The position numbers and the translations under genes were made by a program. 35,977 nt of DNA from contig PGEI01000024.1 in assembly GCA_002894305.1 (NCBI GenBank), forward strand, positions 1 through 35,977. The letters are read 5' to 3'. The notes beneath the pieces were generated by a model. That model worked only from the letters and a program-made list of their open reading frames with translations. It had not been told where the DNA came from and did no database searches. Each line of letters opens with the position of its first letter. Position 1 is the first letter of the stretch. Source of the DNA: Comamonadaceae bacterium CD01 (GTDB lineage Bacteria > Pseudomonadota > Gammaproteobacteria > Burkholderiales > Burkholderiaceae_C). Shown here piece by piece: positions 6,896 to 35,695 of the stretch.

Positions 6896-8075
6896 CGCCC
6901 CCGATGGGCTTGGCGCCCGGCTGCGCCACTGGCGGGGCGCGATTCTCCAGACGGGGCGCGGCCTGCTCGCCCCGTGCGAGCCACAGCACGGCGCCCCAGC
7001 TGGCCAGCGCCATTGCGCCCAGCCAGGCCAGCGGCCAGGCCGCCGCCTGCAGCGGCGCGCCCATCTGGTTGAGCTGCAGCGAGGCCTGGATGCCGGCGGT
7101 GCTGGGCGACAGCCAGCGCAGCCACTGCAGCGCCTCGGGGAGCGCCTGTACCGGCCAGGTGAAGCCGCCCAGAAAGGCCAGGGGCAGCGAGGTGAACAGC
7201 ACCACCTGCATCGCGCGCTCGCGCTCGGCCAGCCACCAACCCAGGAGCGCCGCGCAGCCGGCCACCGCCGGCACGAAGGCCGACAGCAGCACCAGCGCGC
7301 CCAGCGGGTTGCCGCCGCGCGGGTAGTCCTGCCAGACGAAGATCCAGCCGAAGTACAGCAGCCCGGCCAGCCAGCCCGGCGCGCACAGCGCCATCAGCCG
7401 CGCCAGCCAGGCGCGCGCGCCGTCGCCCGCGCGCCCGTTCTCGCGCAGCGTGCCGACGTGCAGCGCACCGCCCATCAGCAGCGTCTGCTGCAGGATCAGC
7501 ACCGCCACGGCGGCGACGACGAAGCTGCCGTAGCCTTCGGTCGGGTTGAACAGCGCCACCAACTGCAGCGACAGCGGCGCGCGGCTGGCCCGGGCCTGCA
7601 GCGCGCTCTGGCCGCCGGCCTGCAGGCGGCGCAGCTCGATGCCGGCCGACAGCGTGCCCACGGCCTCGGCAAAGCCGTACTGCACCTGCTTGGCGGCGAT
7701 CGGATAGGCGCCGTTGGCGTACACCGGCACCACCACGTCGGCCGCGCGCAGCACGTCGCGCTTGAAGTCGCGCGGCACGAGGGCGTAGCCCATCACCTCG
7801 CCGGCCAAGAGCGCGGCGCGCGCCTGGCCCTCATCGGCGGTGACGAGCTGCACTGCGATGCGCGGGCTGGCGCCGGCAAAGCGCAGCAGTTGGCGCGACA
7901 GTGCCGAATCGTCCTGCACCACCACGGCCACCGGCACGCGCTGCGCGACCTCGGTGGCGTAGAACCAGGGGTAGAAGAAGCCGTAGAGCAGCGGCGCGCC
8001 AAAGACCAGCAGCGCCACGCCCTTGTCGCGCAAGAGCGCGCGCAGCTCCAGCCGCAGCAGCGTGATGAAAACCAT
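6891..8075 (-). CDS. ABC-2 type transport permease (second of pair)
   Basis: This 394-residue inner-membrane permease has the ABC-2 / YhhJ-YbhR-type layout. An N-terminal membrane anchor (LLRDKGVALLVFGAPLLYG) is followed by a large periplasmic domain (about 40-170, VPVAVVVQDDSALSRQLL), then five or so hydrophobic segments. DDSALSRQLLR resembles DEDHSALSRQLVR in the preceding gene, so the two permeases are paralogues. The start at 8075 has GGGAGG upstream, and the longer open frame to 8588 overlaps the previous gene. It lies 13 nt after that gene's stop, in the same operon as hlyD and tolC. It probably pairs with the first permease in a heterodimeric exporter. The substrate is unknown. Confidence 0.88.
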   Translation of the reverse strand: MVFITLLRLELRALLRDKGVALLVFGAPLLYGFFYPWFYATEVAQRVPVAVVVQDDSALSRQLLRFAGASPRIAVQLVTADEGQARAALLAGEVMGYALVPRDFKRDVLRAADVVVPVYANGAYPIAAKQVQYGFAEAVGTLSAGIELRRLQAGGQSALQARASRAPLSLQLVALFNPTEGYGSFVVAAVAVLILQQTLLMGGALHVGTLRENGRAGDGARAWLARLMALCAPGWLAGLLYFGWIFVWQDYPRGGNPLGALVLLSAFVPAVAGCAALLGWWLAERERAMQVVLFTSLPLAFLGGFTWPVQALPEALQWLRWLSPSTAGIQASLQLNQMGAPLQAAAWPLAWLGAMALASWGAVLWLARGEQAAPRLENRAPPVAQPGAKPIGGA

Positions 8076-8088
8076 CACCCGCCTCCCA

Positions 8089-9261
8089 TCACCGCGCGCC
8101 CCAGCGTTCGGGCCGGCGCAGGCCGCGCGCCAGCCCGGCGCTGGCCAGCCCCAGCAGCGCCAGCGTGGCCAGCAGCAGGCCGGCGACGACGGGCAGCGTC
8201 TGCGCCGCCGGCGCGCCCATCTGCCACTGCTGCAGCTGCAACCGCGCGTAGTGGGTGTAGGGCATGGCCAGCGCCCAGCCGCGCGCGCTGCTGTCCATGG
8301 CCAGCAGCGGGTAGGCCACGCCGCTGAAGGCGAACGCCGGCGCCGACAGCAGCCCGGCCCCAGACAATGCCATGCGCAGCGACAAGGTGATGCCCGCCAG
8401 CGCCGCTCCCGCCGCCAGGCTGACCAGCACCAGCGCCGCCAGCGCCAGCGCCACCCATGCCATGCTTCCGGCCACCGCCCAGCCGCGCAGCTGCGCCAGG
8501 TAGAGCTGCGCGGCCACCGCGCCCAGCCACAGCGTGCACGCCGGCAGCGCCAGCTTGCCCACCAACGCGGCAAACACCTGCGGCCCACACGCCCGGGCGC
8601 CCAGCCAGTCGCCCAGCGTGCGGTCGCGCAGCTCGCGGCCCACGCCCCAGGCGCCGGCGGTCATCGCCAGGATGTGCACCAACGCCGGCACCAGCGCTGC
8701 GGCCAGGAACTGCTCGTAGTTGGTCGAGACATTGAACAGCGACACCAGCTGCGTCTTGACCGGCTCGATGCGCGTGCGCAGTGCCTGCCCGGGCGTGCCG
8801 CGCTTGGCCAACGCCTGCATCCGGGCGCCGGCCGACAGCGTGCCGACCACCTGGCGCAGGTCGCGCTGCAGCAGGCTGGACGCGGTGGCCAGTTGGGCGT
8901 TGTGCAAAAGCGTGACGTCTGCCGCGCCGCCGCGCTTGAGCGCGCGCGCCATGCCGGCCGGTATGTGCACCACGCCGTACACCGCCATGCGTTCCAGCGC
9001 GTCCTGCGCCTGGGCGCGGTTGAGCAGGCTCTGCTGCACCTGCAGGCCGGGCGCGGCGCCGAGCATGCGCACCAGCTGGCGCGACAGCGCCGAATGGTCC
9101 TCGTCCCACACCGCGATCGGCAGCCGGTAAGGCTGGCCTGCAGCAAAAATCCAGCACAGCAGCGCCATGGCCAGCCACGGCACCCAGGTCAGCATGGCCA
9201 GGTCGAAGGGCCGCGCGCGCAGCAGGCGCCACTCGCGGCGCAGGCTGGCGATGAAGCCCAT
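8089..9261 (-). CDS. ABC-2 type transport permease (first of pair)
   Basis: This 390-residue permease is related to its downstream neighbour. The N-terminal cytoplasmic start RREWRLLRARPFDLAML leads into a membrane anchor, then a periplasmic domain (PIAVWDEDHSALSRQLVR), then a cluster of hydrophobic segments rich in Ala, Leu and Gly. The start at 9261 overlaps the hlyD stop by one base (TGATG), and a GTG one codon upstream is possible. Families of this type (YbhS/YbhR, YhhJ) normally work with an ATPase of the YbhF/RbbA kind. None is encoded in the window, so either it is supplied in trans or the pair works differently. Substrate prediction is not possible. Confidence 0.88.
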   Translation of the reverse strand: MGFIASLRREWRLLRARPFDLAMLTWVPWLAMALLCWIFAAGQPYRLPIAVWDEDHSALSRQLVRMLGAAPGLQVQQSLLNRAQAQDALERMAVYGVVHIPAGMARALKRGGAADVTLLHNAQLATASSLLQRDLRQVVGTLSAGARMQALAKRGTPGQALRTRIEPVKTQLVSLFNVSTNYEQFLAAALVPALVHILAMTAGAWGVGRELRDRTLGDWLGARACGPQVFAALVGKLALPACTLWLGAVAAQLYLAQLRGWAVAGSMAWVALALAALVLVSLAAGAALAGITLSLRMALSGAGLLSAPAFAFSGVAYPLLAMDSSARGWALAMPYTHYARLQLQQWQMGAPAAQTLPVVAGLLLATLALLGLASAGLARGLRRPERWGAR

Positions 9262-30394: not shown

Positions 30395-31765
30395 TCAAAC
30401 CCAGTCGAACTCGGCCGTGAAGTGGCGCAAAAACTTCGGCTGCTTGGTGATCTTCACGCCGCGAATGCTGGCGGCTTGTTCCTTCACCTCGGCGATCACC
30501 TCGGCCGCGTAGTCGAAGTGGCTTTGCGTGTACATGCGACGCGGAAACGCCAGGCGCACCAGTTCCATGCTGTGGTAGGTCTCGGTTCCATCCTGCAACC
30601 GCTTGCCGAACATCACCGAGCCGATCTCCACGCCGCGTATGCCGCCCTCCAGGTACAGCGCGTTGCACAGCGCCCAGGCGGGGTAGTGCGCGACTGGCAT
30701 ATCGGGCAGCACGGTCTTGGCGTCGATGTAGACCGCATGGCCACCGGTGGGGCGCACAAAGCCCACGCCCGCCTCGTCCAGCTTCTCGCCCAGATATTCG
30801 GCGGTGCGCAGGCGGTAGCGCAGGTAGTCCTCGTCCATGCCCTCCTGCAGGCCGACGGCCAGCGCCTCCAGGTCGCGCCCGGCCATGCCGCCATAGGTGG
30901 GAAAGCCTTCCATCATGATCAGGTCGCTGCGCACCTCGTCGAGCCACTCGTCGCTCCTCAGCACGATGAAGCCGCCGATGTTGACCATGCCGTCCTTCTT
31001 GGCGCTCATCGTCGCGCCGTCGGCGTAGCTGAACATCTCGCGCACGATGTCGGGAATCGGCGTGTTCTCGTAGCCGCTCTCGCGCATCTTGATGAACATG
31101 GCGTTCTCGGCAAAACGGCACACGTCCATGATGAAGGGCTTGCCGTATTTCTTCAGCAAGGCAGCGTAGGCACGGATGTTGGCCATCGACACCGGCTGGC
31201 CGCCGCCGGTGTTGTTGGTGACGGTGAGCATGCCGAACGGGATGCGCGCGCCCTCTTTTTGCAGCACTTCCTCGACGCGGGCGAGGTCGATGTTGCCCTT
31301 GAACGGCGCAATGGTCGCCGGCTGCAGGCCGACGGCCTCGACGCAGTCGAGCGCCTCCACGCCCATGTATTCGAGGTTGCCGCGCGTGGTGTCGAAGTGG
31401 CAGTTGTTGGGCACCAGGTCGCCTTTTTTGCACACCGCGGTAAACAACACCTTCTCGGCCGCGCGGCCCTGGTGCGTGGGTATGAAGTGCGCCATGCCGG
31501 TGATGTCCTGGATCACCTTCTCAAGCCGGTAGTAGCTGCGCGCGCCGGCGTAGCTCTCGTCGCCCTCCATGATGGCGCCCCACTGGCGGCTGGACATGGC
31601 GCCGGTGCCCGAGTCGGTCAGCCAGTCGATCAGCACGTCGTCGGCGCGCAGTTTGAAGACGTTCAGGTGCGCCGCCTGCAGCAGCTGCTCGCGCTCGGCG
31701 CGCGTGGTCATGCGGATGGGTTCGACGCTCTTGATGCGAAACGGCTCGATCAGGGTCTTGGGCAT
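30395..31765 (-). CDS. tnaA: Tryptophanase (tyrosine phenol-lyase family)
   Basis: This is a PLP enzyme of 456 residues that cleaves tryptophan to indole, pyruvate and ammonia. Family signs are EPFRIKSVEPIRMTTRAERE, the PLP lysine in MSAKKDGMVNIGG (K257) and the GGQPVSMANI loop. Three positions separate tryptophanase from tyrosine phenol-lyase. Residue 125 is Asp (HFDTTRG; lyase has Thr). The VEIG segment lacks the lyase arginine. Near the C-terminus His448 is in LRHFTAEF, where the lyase has Phe. All three favour tryptophanase, although the length equals that of the lyase. AAGGAG lies 7 nt before ATG 31765. No TnaC-like leader was found in the 31766-32031 gap shared with ubiU. Confidence 0.88.
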   Translation of the reverse strand: MPKTLIEPFRIKSVEPIRMTTRAEREQLLQAAHLNVFKLRADDVLIDWLTDSGTGAMSSRQWGAIMEGDESYAGARSYYRLEKVIQDITGMAHFIPTHQGRAAEKVLFTAVCKKGDLVPNNCHFDTTRGNLEYMGVEALDCVEAVGLQPATIAPFKGNIDLARVEEVLQKEGARIPFGMLTVTNNTGGGQPVSMANIRAYAALLKKYGKPFIMDVCRFAENAMFIKMRESGYENTPIPDIVREMFSYADGATMSAKKDGMVNIGGFIVLRSDEWLDEVRSDLIMMEGFPTYGGMAGRDLEALAVGLQEGMDEDYLRYRLRTAEYLGEKLDEAGVGFVRPTGGHAVYIDAKTVLPDMPVAHYPAWALCNALYLEGGIRGVEIGSVMFGKRLQDGTETYHSMELVRLAFPRRMYTQSHFDYAAEVIAEVKEQAASIRGVKITKQPKFLRHFTAEFDWV

Positions 31766-31941
31766 GGTGGTACTCCTTGGCTGTCTGTATGCACATGGGG
31801 CGCCCTTGCCGGCGGCCCAACTGAAGCGGCCAAAGGTAGCGCCGTGGCGCGGCCGTGGTGTCGGTCTTTTCCAACACAGGGGCAAAAAGGGCTGATCCAC
31901 TGCAAACGCAGGCTGCCTGCACCGATCGCTGCGCCCGGGTG

Positions 31942-31955
31942 TTGATGCAAATCAG
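31942..31955 (+). promoter_or_regulatory. FNR/ANR-type box in the tnaA-ubiU divergent region
   Basis: TTGAT-GCAA-ATCAG matches the FNR/ANR consensus at 9 of 10 positions. Its centre would lie at -41.5 of a transcript starting near 31990, with a weak -10 (TAAGGT, 31978-31983). That geometry is class II activation of ubiU. No suitable -10 is visible for tnaA. Confidence 0.65.
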
Positions 31956-32031
31956 GTCATGGTTATTGCCCGCTGCCTAAGGTGTGTAGCTTGTTTGCCG
32001 CCGCCGCGGCAAGGCTTGCAAGAGATTGAAC

Positions 32032-33075
32032 GTGACCACGACCAACCCCACCCCCGCCAGCACGCCGCTCGCCGCGCCCGAGCTGGTCTGCCCCGCCGGC
32101 AGCCTGCCAGCCCTGAAGAACGCCGTCGACGGCGGCGCCGACTGCGTCTACCTGGGCCTGCGCGACGCGACCAACGCGCGCAACTTCGCCGGGCTGAACT
32201 TCGACGAGAACGCCATCCAGACCGGTATCGCCTACGCCCACGGACGCGGCGCCAAGGTGTTGATGGCGCTCAACACCTACCCCCAGGCCAGCAACCCCGG
32301 CCCCTGGCGCGCCGCGCTGGACAAGGCGGCGCTGTGGGGCATAGACGCAGTGATCCTGGCCGACCCCGGCCTGATGCGCTACGCCTGCGAGCGCCACCCC
32401 GGCCTGCGCCTGCACCTGTCGGTGCAGGGCTCGGCCACCAACCACGAGGCAATCAACCTCTACCACCGCCAGTTCGGCATCCAGCGCGCGGTGCTGCCGC
32501 GCGTACTGTCGCTGGAGCAGGTGCGCCAGGTGATTGACCGCACACCAGTGGAGATCGAGGTGTTCGGCTTCGGCAGCCTGTGCGTGATGGTCGAGGGCCG
32601 CTGCGCGCTGTCGTCCTACGCGACGGGCGAGTCGCCCAACACCCATGGCGTGTGCTCGCCGGCCAAGTACGTGCGCTGGAAGGAGTCGCCCACGGGCGTC
32701 GAGTCGCGCCTGAACGGCGTGCTGATCGATAAATACGGCCAGGGCGAAAACGCCGGCTACCCCACACTGTGCAAGGGCCGCTTCGACGTGGAGGGCGAGA
32801 GCAACTACTACGCGCTGGAAGAGCCCACCAGCCTGAACACCCTGGAGCTGCTGCCCCAGCTCGTCAAGATGGGCGTGCGCGCCTTCAAGATCGAGGGCCG
32901 CCAGAGAAGCCCGGCCTACGTCGCCCAGGTCACCAAGGTGTGGCGCGAGGCCATCGACCACTGCATGGCGCAAGGCCACCTCTACGCCCCCAAGACGGCC
33001 TGGATGGCCAGCCTGGATCAAGTCGCCGAGGGCCAGCAGCACACGCTGGGGGCCTACCACCGGCCCTGGAAATGA
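32032..33075 (+). CDS. ubiU: O2-independent ubiquinone hydroxylation protein UbiU (U32 family)
   Basis: UbiU, with UbiV, hydroxylates the ubiquinone ring without oxygen, using an iron-sulfur cluster. The 347-residue U32 peptidase-like protein opens ELVCPAGSLPALKNAVDGGADCVYLG. Four cysteines in the UbiU pattern are present: C184 and C191 in LCVMVEGRC, C208 in GVCSP and C247 in TLCKG. GTG 32032 was chosen because AGAGA lies about 7 nt upstream. TTG at 32026 is in frame but too close to it. It is the first gene of the anaerobic quinone set, behind an FNR/ANR-type box. Confidence 0.93.
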   Translation: MTTTNPTPASTPLAAPELVCPAGSLPALKNAVDGGADCVYLGLRDATNARNFAGLNFDENAIQTGIAYAHGRGAKVLMALNTYPQASNPGPWRAALDKAALWGIDAVILADPGLMRYACERHPGLRLHLSVQGSATNHEAINLYHRQFGIQRAVLPRVLSLEQVRQVIDRTPVEIEVFGFGSLCVMVEGRCALSSYATGESPNTHGVCSPAKYVRWKESPTGVESRLNGVLIDKYGQGENAGYPTLCKGRFDVEGESNYYALEEPTSLNTLELLPQLVKMGVRAFKIEGRQRSPAYVAQVTKVWREAIDHCMAQGHLYAPKTAWMASLDQVAEGQQHTLGAYHRPWK

Positions 33076-33251: not shown

Positions 33252-34154
33252 ATGATGAAACTAGCCCTCGGCCCCCTGCAGTACTACTGGCACCGCGACA
33301 CCGTCTTCGAGTTCTACCAACAGATGGCCGAGACGCCCATCGACATCGTCTATCTGGGCGAGGCCGTGTGCTCGCGCCGCCACGAACTGCGCCAGGGCGA
33401 CTGGATGGACATTGCCCGCATGCTGCGTGACGCCGGCAAGCAGCCGGTGCTCTCGACCATGGTGCTGCTGGAGTCGACCTCGGACGTGGTCGCGATGCAG
33501 AAGATCGCGCGCGACGAGGAGTTCCTGATCGAGGCCAACGACATGGGTGCGGTCAACGCCCTGGCCGGCAAGCGCCCGTTTGTCGCCGGGCCGCAGCTCA
33601 ACCTGTTCAACGCCGACGCGCTGGCCTGGATGGCCAGCCTGGGCGCCTCGCGCTGGGTCATGCCGCTGGAGATGCGCCAGTCCGACCTGGCCATCCTGCA
33701 GCAAAGCCGCCCGCCGGGGCTTGAGACCGAGGTCTTCGCCTACGGGCGCATGCCGCTGGCGTTCTCGGCGCGGTGCTTTACCGCGCGCCACTACAACCTA
33801 CCCAAGGACGACTGCGGCTTCTCCTGCATCCACCACGCCGACGGCCAGCTGCTCAAGACGCGCGAGGGCGAGCCCTTTCTCGTGCTCAACGGCATCCAGA
33901 CCCAGTCGGCCAAGGTGCACAACCTGCTGGACGACGTGCCGCAGCTGATCGCCACCGGAGTCGACATCCTGCGTCTGTCGCCGCAGTCGCAGCACATGGC
34001 CGAGGTGATTGCCGCCTTCGACCAGGCGCGCCGCGCCGGCGAAGCCGCCGAAGGCGCACTGGACGCGCTGCGCCCGCTGATGCCCGCCGAGCCCTGCAAC
34101 GGCTACTGGCACGGCCGGCCTGGCATGGAGCTGGTCGAGCCGGCCACGGCGTAA
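33252..34154 (+). CDS. ubiV: O2-independent ubiquinone hydroxylation protein UbiV (U32 family)
   Basis: UbiV is the partner of UbiU and carries a [4Fe-4S] cluster. The 300-residue protein starts [13 protein letters not shown]. The likely ligands are C40 ([11 protein letters not shown]), C175 ([10 protein letters not shown]), C188 and C192 (KDDCGFSC), the four-cysteine pattern of UbiV. The ATG at 33252 or the next ATG at 33255 could be used; neither has a clear Shine-Dalgarno. The REPIN-like element just upstream may affect expression. The gene is probably in the same transcript as ubiU and ubiT. Confidence 0.93.
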
Positions 34155-34189
34155 GACCGCCGTAAACTGACAGAGCAAGGATGGACACG

Positions 34190-34717
34190 ATGATTGCCAC
34201 GCCCCCACCCCCAATCACATTGCCGCGCCCCGTCGGCGCGCTGCTTGCCCGCCTGCCGGCCTACCCCGGCTCGCTGCTGCTGGTCAAGGCCATCAACCTG
34301 GCGCTGGCGCGCCAGCTGCCCGACGACGTCAAGGCCCACCTGCTGGACAAGCGCATCAGCATCCGCGTGCGCGACGCCCGCCTGGCATTTGACTTCAGCT
34401 GGAACGGCACGCGCTTTGCCCCCGGCCGCCCCTGGCCCGAACCCGACCTGGCGATCAGCGCCAACGCGCAGGACTTTCTGCTGCTGGCCCAGCGCCGCCA
34501 GGATCCGGACACGCTGTTCTTCAACCGCCGCCTGGTGATGGAGGGCGACACCGAGCTGGGTCTTATCGTCAAGAACGCGCTGGACGCTCTGGAGCTGCCG
34601 GTGATGGACCCGATGCACTGGACGCCGCGCGCCGTGCTCGAACGCAGGGCGCCGCACCTGGCGCGCCAGCTGCCTCCGCTGCCTTCGCTGGGCAGGCTGC
34701 TGGGAGGCCGACCATGA
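34190..34717 (+). CDS. ubiT: Ubiquinone biosynthesis accessory factor UbiT (SCP2 domain)
   Basis: UbiT is an SCP2/sterol-carrier fold protein required for ubiquinone synthesis without oxygen, thought to hold hydrophobic intermediates. The 175-residue protein has a Pro-rich head (PPPPITLPRPV) and then an SCP2-like domain with hydrophobic strands such as DARLAFDFSWNG and DLAISANAQDFLLLA, followed by RRLVMEGDTELGLIVKNALD. A possible Shine-Dalgarno AAGGA lies 8 nt before ATG 34190; ATG 34181 is also in frame. The stop overlaps the next start by 4 nt, so the genes are coupled. Confidence 0.9.
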   Translation: MIATPPPPITLPRPVGALLARLPAYPGSLLLVKAINLALARQLPDDVKAHLLDKRISIRVRDARLAFDFSWNGTRFAPGRPWPEPDLAISANAQDFLLLAQRRQDPDTLFFNRRLVMEGDTELGLIVKNALDALELPVMDPMHWTPRAVLERRAPHLARQLPPLPSLGRLLGGRP

Positions 34718-35118
34718 GCGACGACAACCCCATCCAGCGCGAAGACCTGCCACTGGTGTATTCCTGCTCGGGCTGCTCCAGCGCCGCGCAACTGGCCAAT
34801 CAGGTGGCTGTGCAGATGGATCGGCGTGGCGTGGCCGAGATGTCGTGCATTGCCGGCGTTGGCGGCGACGTGCCGCAGCTGGTGCGCGTGGCCACGTCGG
34901 GCCGGCCCATCATCGCGCTGGACGGCTGCCCGCTGGAATGCGTGCGCCATTCTCTGGCGCGCCACGGCGTCGCACCCGCGCGCCACTACCAGCTGCACAA
35001 ATACGGCGTGAAAAAGCGCAAGCACCAGGACTTCGACCCGGCGCAGGCGGCGCAGGTGCTGGCCCAGGTCAGCCAGGATCTGCAAGAGCACCCGCTGACC
35101 GCCGCAGAACATGCCTGA
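34714..35118 (+). CDS. DGC-type putative zinc-binding protein
   Basis: This 134-residue cysteine-rich protein starts [31 protein letters not shown]. It contains [17 protein letters not shown] and the [12 protein letters not shown] motif from which the DGC domain family takes its name, giving CxxC, a lone C and CxxxC. Such proteins are annotated as putative zinc-binding and their function is unknown. GGGAGG lies 6 nt before ATG 34714. It overlaps ubiT by 4 nt and ubiX by 8 nt, which places it inside the anaerobic ubiquinone operon and suggests an uncharacterised role in it, perhaps metal or electron handling for UbiU-UbiV. Confidence 0.82.
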
Positions 35119-35695
35119 GCCGCGTCGCATCATCGTCGGCATCTCGGGCGCCAGCGGCGCGGTCTACGGCGTGGCGCTGCTGCGCGCGCTGCGCACCATC
35201 GAAGAAGTCGAGTCGCACCTGGTCGTCTCTGCCGCCGGCTGGCTCAACATCGCACACGAGACCGGCATGGACGCCGCGGCGGTGCACGCGCTGGCCGACG
35301 TCGTCCATCCGATCGACGCAATTGGCGCCAGCATTGCCAGCGGGTCGTTTGCTGCTTCAGGCATGGTGGTCGCGCCCTGCTCGATGCGCACGCTGGCGGC
35401 CATCGCCCACGGCCTGGCCGACAACCTGCTGACGCGCGCCGCCGACGTGATCCTGAAGGAGCGCCGCCGCCTGGTGCTGCTGGCGCGCGAAACGCCGCTG
35501 CACCTGGTGCACCTGCGCAACATGACGACGGTGACCGAAATGGGCGCCATCGTCTGCCCGCCGGTGCCGGCCTTCTACCAGAAGCCGCAGACCGTGGACG
35601 ACATCGTCCAACACAGCGTGGCGCGCGCTCTCGACCTGCTGGAGCTGGAGCATGATCTGGCGCCGCGCTGGCAGGGCCTGCCGAAGAACCCCTGA
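35111..35695 (+). CDS. ubiX: Flavin prenyltransferase UbiX
   Basis: UbiX transfers a dimethylallyl group to FMN, making the prenylated flavin cofactor used by the UbiD decarboxylase in ubiquinone synthesis. The 194-residue protein starts [20 protein letters not shown], the FMN-binding GxSGA motif. [20 protein letters not shown] and [18 protein letters not shown] follow. It overlaps the DGC gene by 8 nt, so translation is coupled. UbiD is not in the window. Unlike UbiUVT, UbiX acts in both aerobic and anaerobic synthesis, so an anaerobically driven copy may top up the cofactor. Confidence 0.95.

Follow-up and report, generated by a model that had tools for sequence, protein, structure and literature searches.

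An AnvM-like DGC-domain protein in an operon for anaerobic ubiquinone synthesis, and its possible role as an accessory factor of nitrate respiration

An operon for anaerobic ubiquinone synthesis in Comamonadaceae bacterium CD01 contains a gene of the DGC family. It lies in a contig of 35,977 nucleotides, here called the window, which is the whole stretch of DNA that was analysed. The tie of DGC to the UbiUVT pathway is not due to chance, but it is one-way. DGC tends to depend on a setting that employs UbiUVT, but not UbiUVT on DGC. We tentatively propose, with somewhat less than even confidence, that DGC belongs to the FNR/ANR regulon as an accessory thiol or metal protein, which would support the oxygen-labile Fe-S proteins of nitrate respiration. 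UbiU and UbiV would probably be among the proteins so supported.

The operon runs in the order ubiU-ubiV-ubiT-DGC-ubiX, with all genes on the plus strand. The neighbours of the DGC gene all score above the curated NCBIfam cut-offs: ubiU (32026..33075; NF047963, 554.8 bits, cut-off 440), ubiV (33252..34154; NF047965, 406.5 bits, cut-off 275), ubiT (34181..34717; NF047962, 138.2 bits, cut-off 46.9) and a ubiX-family flavin prenyltransferase gene (35111..35695; NF004685, 286 bits, cut-off 188; also TIGR00421). The DGC gene itself (34714..35118, plus strand), an open reading frame of 134 codons that starts with ATG and is recognised by the Pfam profile PF08859, is real. The overlaps on which a sequence-only reading of this DNA had built its case are confirmed by the coordinates. 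The stop of ubiT, at 34717, and the DGC start have 4 nt in common (ATGA), and the ATG of ubiX at 35111 precedes the DGC stop at 35118, which makes an overlap of 8 nt. Upstream of ubiU, a script scan found the FNR/ANR-like candidate box TTGATGCAAATCAG (31942..31955, plus strand), which agrees at 9 of 10 positions with the sequence that we take to be the FNR/ANR consensus and that was used for the box scan. A tryptophanase or tyrosine phenol-lyase-like gene (30395-31900, minus strand) diverges from ubiU; the FNR-type box lies in between.

The match of the window protein to PF08859 (E 8.3e-36, 122.7 bits against a cut-off of 27) covers profile positions 1-106 of 106; it is a full-length DGC domain. 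The protein is 53% identical to the copy of AnvM from Pseudomonas aeruginosa (L102, alignment A2), which is annotated as 'anaerobic/virulence modulator AnvM' and whose gene adjoins narXL. Relatives found by tblastn in 30 plasmid records are mostly annotated as 'putative zinc-binding protein'. DGC was the sole significant Pfam family in the 40 family members scanned, NCBIfam matches being weak and scattered (best E 0.0015), and no DNA-binding domain accompanies it in the window protein or in these 40. By sequence, the window protein is a close relative, and probably the counterpart, of AnvM/PA3880. Since genomes with DGC usually have a single PF08859 gene, as seen in the family, order and phylum surveys described below, it is reasonable to treat the window gene in this way. 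A tree requires 8 changes of ubiT adjacency, 3 of them forced by its starred branches; with 40 short rows, a quick method and 20 of 37 inner branches open, it is too weak to prove orthology in detail.

The two proteins share their length class, five cysteines and the DGC motif; Cys45 of the window protein occupies the place of Cys44 in AnvM, and both are tied to genes of anaerobic respiration and to FNR/ANR-type boxes. Their settings differ. In P. aeruginosa anvM stands alone behind narXL, whereas the window gene shares its operon with ubiUVT and ubiX. The window protein adds one more member to a family that is already known and not wholly uncharacterised. The claim of the sequence-only reading that such proteins have no assigned role fails, because the P. 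aeruginosa homologue had already been studied (PMC6650552). According to the accessible text of that paper, the anvM transcript rises about 100-fold without O2, no other cysteine detected in the P. aeruginosa proteome is as sensitive to peroxide as Cys44, and a change of Cys44 to serine impairs the function of AnvM in vivo. The same text reports altered expression of more than 700 genes and two-hybrid contacts of AnvM with Anr and MvfR. Claims about virulence and a host receptor have also been made for AnvM. It further states that protein dissolved from inclusion bodies held no significant Zn, Cu or Fe, and that the anvM deletion reportedly had no anaerobic growth defect, the data not being shown in the paper. 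The Anr contact comes from this single paper, for which a published correction concerning duplicated images names Fig. 2I, as far as its accessible part goes (PMC7554671). This was the single DGC/AnvM study found; its accessible text presents AnvM as a virulence regulator and reports no biochemical activity (PMC6650552).

Scanning of contigs yielded 426 relatives of the window protein, of which the best 80 were retained. By record title they belong to Comamonadaceae (67), Burkholderiaceae (4) and Sphaerotilaceae (1), and 8 are without a family. Among these best 80 of 426, ubiT lies directly upstream of DGC in 79, the remaining locus being cut by the contig end; ubiU, ubiV and ubiT are all present in 75 and ubiX in 77. 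The gap between ubiT and DGC is 65 nt or less in 79 of 79 loci; the genes overlap in 62 and do so by exactly 4 nt in 50, while the gaps of -405 and -79 are the script's choices of start codon. The adjacency to ubiUVT that the sequence-only reading had suggested surveying is therefore conserved, 79 of the best 80 relatives standing behind ubiT. The best 80 loci were rejected as independent evidence, 67 of them belonging to one family. Because of this dependence, the argument is carried by genus-level tests and by wider surveys.

Gene orders vary: DGC follows ubiT, is convergent with it or stands ahead of the ubi genes. At the level of the family, 20 of 32 DGC genomes have a UbiT match no more than 200 nt away from DGC. 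The order survey places it beside ubiT in 8 of 20 and on a separate contig in 11 of 20; the last genome, G115, has no UbiT. In the phylum survey DGC and ubiU share a contig, at most 11.5 kb apart, in 11 of the 11 genomes that have both. We also looked for a gene that might substitute for DGC behind ubiT: among the two largest downstream open reading frames at 20 DGC-less control loci, only one related pair (L166/L170) recurs.

A further gene is met in some of these operons. It encodes a membrane protein related to haemolysin III (PF03006, the assignment being checked in two members) and lies between ubiV and ubiT, e.g., at L089:4663-5283 and L097:4817-5491. By tblastn with the L089 protein it was detected in 33 of the 77 loci of the best relatives that hold ubiV and ubiT; it was not found in the window. 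Possibly, the operon for anaerobic ubiquinone synthesis has in it a second accessory gene.

The distribution of DGC relative to ubiUVT, on which the sequence-only reading had staked its proposal, is strongly non-random. The family survey (150 genomes) found PF08859 in 32, UbiT over cut-off in 46 and both in 30; the order survey (200 genomes) found PF08859 in 20, UbiT over cut-off in 68 and both in 19; the phylum survey (249 genomes) found PF08859 in 12, UbiU over cut-off in 82 and both in 11. Fisher tests of co-occurrence give p = 1e-17 (family), 3e-9 (order) and 3e-5 (phylum), the surveys having some genomes in common and the window's own genome being counted once in each. Counted by genus, the values are 2e-13 (family) and 2e-4 (order). 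The 32 DGC genomes of the family include G517 with a partial match (42.1 bits); a weak second match of G032 (L021) falls short of the cut-off and was disregarded.

The reverse does not hold. DGC is missing from 16 of 46 UbiT genomes in the family, from 49 of 68 in the order and from 71 of 82 UbiU genomes in the phylum. The E. coli control genome has UbiT over cut-off and a UbiU match, but no PF08859. Four genomes (G115, G469, G554 and G256) have DGC without UbiU over cut-off, and G115 has neither UbiT nor UbiU over cut-off. Among 14 control genomes PF08859 was found in Methanosarcina acetivorans only, and the plasmid search revealed close DGC proteins in haloarchaea. To our knowledge, the DGC-bearing haloarchaea and Methanosarcina make no ubiquinone. 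DGC shares with UbiT, UbiU and UbiV an operon, an FNR-type box ahead of it and a strong co-occurrence; it differs in being absent from most UbiT or UbiU genomes of the order and the phylum, and from E. coli, and in being present in some genomes without UbiU over cut-off. An obligatory component of the UbiUVT pathway should be found wherever the pathway works and should not be found without it; DGC behaves in neither way.

DGC goes with nitrate respiration. In the order survey narG exceeds its cut-off in 18 of 20 DGC genomes and in 26 of 49 genomes with UbiT and without DGC (p = 0.005), which bears out a link to anaerobic respiration as the sequence-only reading had envisaged it. The narG match passes its cut-off in 10 of 13 further DGC genomes, most of which either have DGC at a distance from ubiT or lack UbiT; these 13 comprise 11 of the 12 DGC genomes of the family survey that have no ubiT within 200 nt (G517 being left out), plus G559 and G256. 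NnrS was tried as a marker of DGC genomes and is not discriminating (20 of 20 against 44 of 49).

The neighbourhood points the same way. Genes up to about 8 kb from DGC were inspected at 30 loci from the order and phylum surveys and compared with those around ubiT at 20 control loci, hand-picked from the 49 UbiT-only genomes. The counts at DGC and control loci, respectively, are 7 and 1 for FNR-like regulators, 6 and 0 for narK, 6 and 1 for narL, 5 and 1 for narX-like genes, 7 and 2 for nrdD as well as for nrdG, 4 and 0 for ytfE, and 3 and 0 each for norR, narG, moaA, moaB and moeA-like genes; for hemerythrin they are 3 and 2 and for nosZ 0 and 1. In G115, nnrS is found 2 kb and narG 8 kb away from DGC. 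In 10 of 19 loci of the order survey (L110, L113-L121), none of the anaerobic marker genes sought was found within about 8 kb. The YtfE/DnrN-type Fe-S repair proteins, which adjoin DGC at the 4 of 30 loci just mentioned, may be compared with it as small accessory proteins of nitrate-respiration islands. This likeness is one of working only: YtfE has hemerythrin and ScdA_N domains, whereas DGC consists of PF08859 alone and has a predicted alpha/beta fold with cysteines.

FNR-type boxes are also found where DGC does not follow ubiT. Of the 23 DGC genes not directly behind ubiT, 9 have such a box within 150 nt upstream, against a mean of 0.08 and a maximum of 2 in 300 trials with shuffled upstream regions; some of the loci with boxes are mutually related. 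The 23 are what is left of 38 loci when the plasmid loci L103-L109, L135 and the seven in which DGC directly follows ubiT are taken out. Within 300 nt upstream, 10 of all 38 loci reach 9 or 10 of 10 box positions; single boxes of this quality are weak when compared with random stretches of the same loci (p 0.03 to 0.23).

A prominent characteristic of the DGC family is its cysteines, and the pattern described by the sequence-only reading (CxxC, C, CxxxC) is indeed present. In the window it comprises Cys18-Ser-Gly-Cys21 (34765..34776), Cys45 (34846..34848) and Asp70-Gly71-Cys72-Pro-Leu-Glu-Cys76 (34921..34941), the last combining the DGC motif with CxxxC; all codons are on the plus strand. Cys18, Cys45, Cys72 and Cys76 are identical in 118 of 118 distinct aligned sequences, the window included, as are Asp70 and Gly71 throughout the alignment; Cys21 is conserved in 117, the exception being a serine in the plasmid locus L107.

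An AlphaFold2 model built from 55 sequences (mean pLDDT 82.5, pTM 0.80) has strands at residues 14-17, 42-44, 66-70 and 90-93, which alternate with helices; its confidence drops below 50 at residues 49-51, right behind Cys45. The predicted fold is an open alpha/beta sheet in which Cys18/Cys21, Cys45 and Cys72/Cys76 follow strands 1, 2 and 3. Since the residues after these strands meet at one edge in open sheets, the cysteines should be placed there, as deduced from the secondary structure of the model. All five together could make one metal or thiol site. Searches of the PDB gave no convincing relative with the single sequence (best E 0.2) and none at E up to 10 with a profile. Structural comparison of the model retrieved a designed Rossmann protein with Foldseek (best E 0.0098) and a domain of a 2-oxoacid:ferredoxin oxidoreductase with VIA-align (best Z 7.7); this likeness is generic, Rossmann/flavodoxin-like only, and is evidence neither of kinship with a known protein nor of novelty of the fold.

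How could these observations be combined? The family, the overlaps, the conserved linkage, the FNR-type boxes and five near-invariant cysteines are what the sequences offer; binding of a metal or cluster by DGC is putative, from the cysteine pattern and its predicted placement. In the accessory role that we propose, DGC would probably share the FNR/ANR-type anaerobic control of ubiUVT and be translationally coupled to ubiT. Its cysteine site, with a very reactive central cysteine, would bind a labile metal, an Fe-S cluster or a persulfide. The protein would then load, protect or tune oxygen-labile Fe-S proteins during shifts between O2 and no O2. FNR/ANR, UbiU and UbiV are the proposed clients, perhaps also NrdG, MoaA and NarG. 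DGC would be helpful but not required, because Isc/Suf could supply the same clusters. Such an accessory role would explain the position in the ubiUVT operon, the wider context of nitrate respiration, the dispensability and the pleiotropic phenotype of AnvM. A narrower version, which we consider quite unlikely, would confine DGC/AnvM to maturing or protecting the oxygen-labile [4Fe-4S] clusters of UbiU/UbiV, which are U32 hydroxylases, and of FNR/ANR, in facultative nitrate respirers that alternate between O2 and its absence. If it were true, the published regulation by AnvM would be downstream of poorly charged Anr and of low anaerobic ubiquinone. The open-licence literature searched yielded no report of a family-wide tie between DGC and O2-independent ubiquinone synthesis. 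The surveys link the family across the Pseudomonadota to this synthesis and to nitrate respiration, and these links point to a metabolic or cofactor role beneath the regulatory effects.

Alternatively, DGC could be a thiol-switch regulator only: it would bind regulators of the FNR/ANR type and others, and would alter expression depending on the redox state of its central cysteine; its place in the ubi operon would then merely provide for simultaneous production. This reading is possible, if doubtful. The AnvM data, in the accessible part of the report, fit it well, with their more than 700 altered genes, the contacts with Anr and MvfR and the oxidation-sensitive Cys44 (PMC6650552), although some of the supporting images were corrected. 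The invariance of Cys45 and the frequent proximity of narL, narX-like or FNR-like genes also agree with a switch; the protein, however, comprises the DGC domain and no DNA-binding domain, its predicted fold is generic, and co-expression alone needs no overlap with ubiT, which is yet seen in 62 of the 79 loci among the best 80 relatives. MvfR is a Pseudomonas regulator and cannot account for conservation elsewhere. An unlikely reading is that of a general protein of nitrate respiration or NO stress, which would be tied to ubiUVT indirectly, by shared nar/nor/nos islands and regulators. The excess of narG in DGC genomes, the proximity of anvM to narXL and of DGC to norR, ytfE, nnrS and hemerythrin genes, and genome G115 with its nar surroundings and no UbiT or UbiU over cut-off would all be accommodated. 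Yet 2 of the 20 DGC genomes of the order survey have UbiT and no narG over cut-off, NnrS does not discriminate, and no nar or nor gene is as tight and as frequently repeated a neighbour of DGC as ubiT or ubiU. Of course, the tie between DGC and UbiUV may reflect only shared anaerobic regulation and denitrification islands, as in 11 of the 19 co-occurring genomes of the order DGC and ubiT are on different contigs and 10 of 19 loci are free of markers.

The sequence-only reading had seen in DGC a dedicated metal, sulfur or electron donor that UbiUV need for hydroxylation. Its premise stands: the literature, in the parts available, has [4Fe-4S] clusters needed by both UbiU and UbiV, and an unknown electron path for the hydroxylation (PMC10470549). 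The operon with its overlaps and the co-occurrence are likewise in its favour, and this non-random linkage is the part of the proposal that survives. The general need does not. Many UbiT or UbiU genomes, as counted above, lack DGC; E. coli, which makes ubiquinone with UbiUVT (PMC6747719, PMC10470549), has UbiT and UbiU matches without PF08859; and close DGC proteins occur on archaeal plasmids. In addition, P. aeruginosa without AnvM reportedly grows anaerobically (PMC6650552), whereas without ubiUVT it does not (PMC10247376), both according to the accessible text of these papers. For these reasons, ring hydroxylation does not in general require DGC as a donor. As a general requirement the dedicated donor is already largely refuted, and we regard it as highly improbable; a supporting, non-essential role of DGC on UbiUV is possible.

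DGC genes are also found on plasmids; of the 30 plasmid records with such genes, 20 are predicted to be conjugative. On a Klebsiella plasmid (L104) the gene (7980-8387) lies between two copies of IS26, in a stretch that has no ubi or nar genes. In Halomicrobium urmianum (L105:5119-6381) it stands behind a gene for an HTH_10/BAT-type regulator, with a peroxiredoxin-family gene and sufB in the vicinity. The DGC protein of G256 (L143/L139) is divergent, its GVGGDVP stretch being altered; neither UbiU nor narG exceeds its cut-off in that genome, and the copy is possibly decaying or re-purposed.
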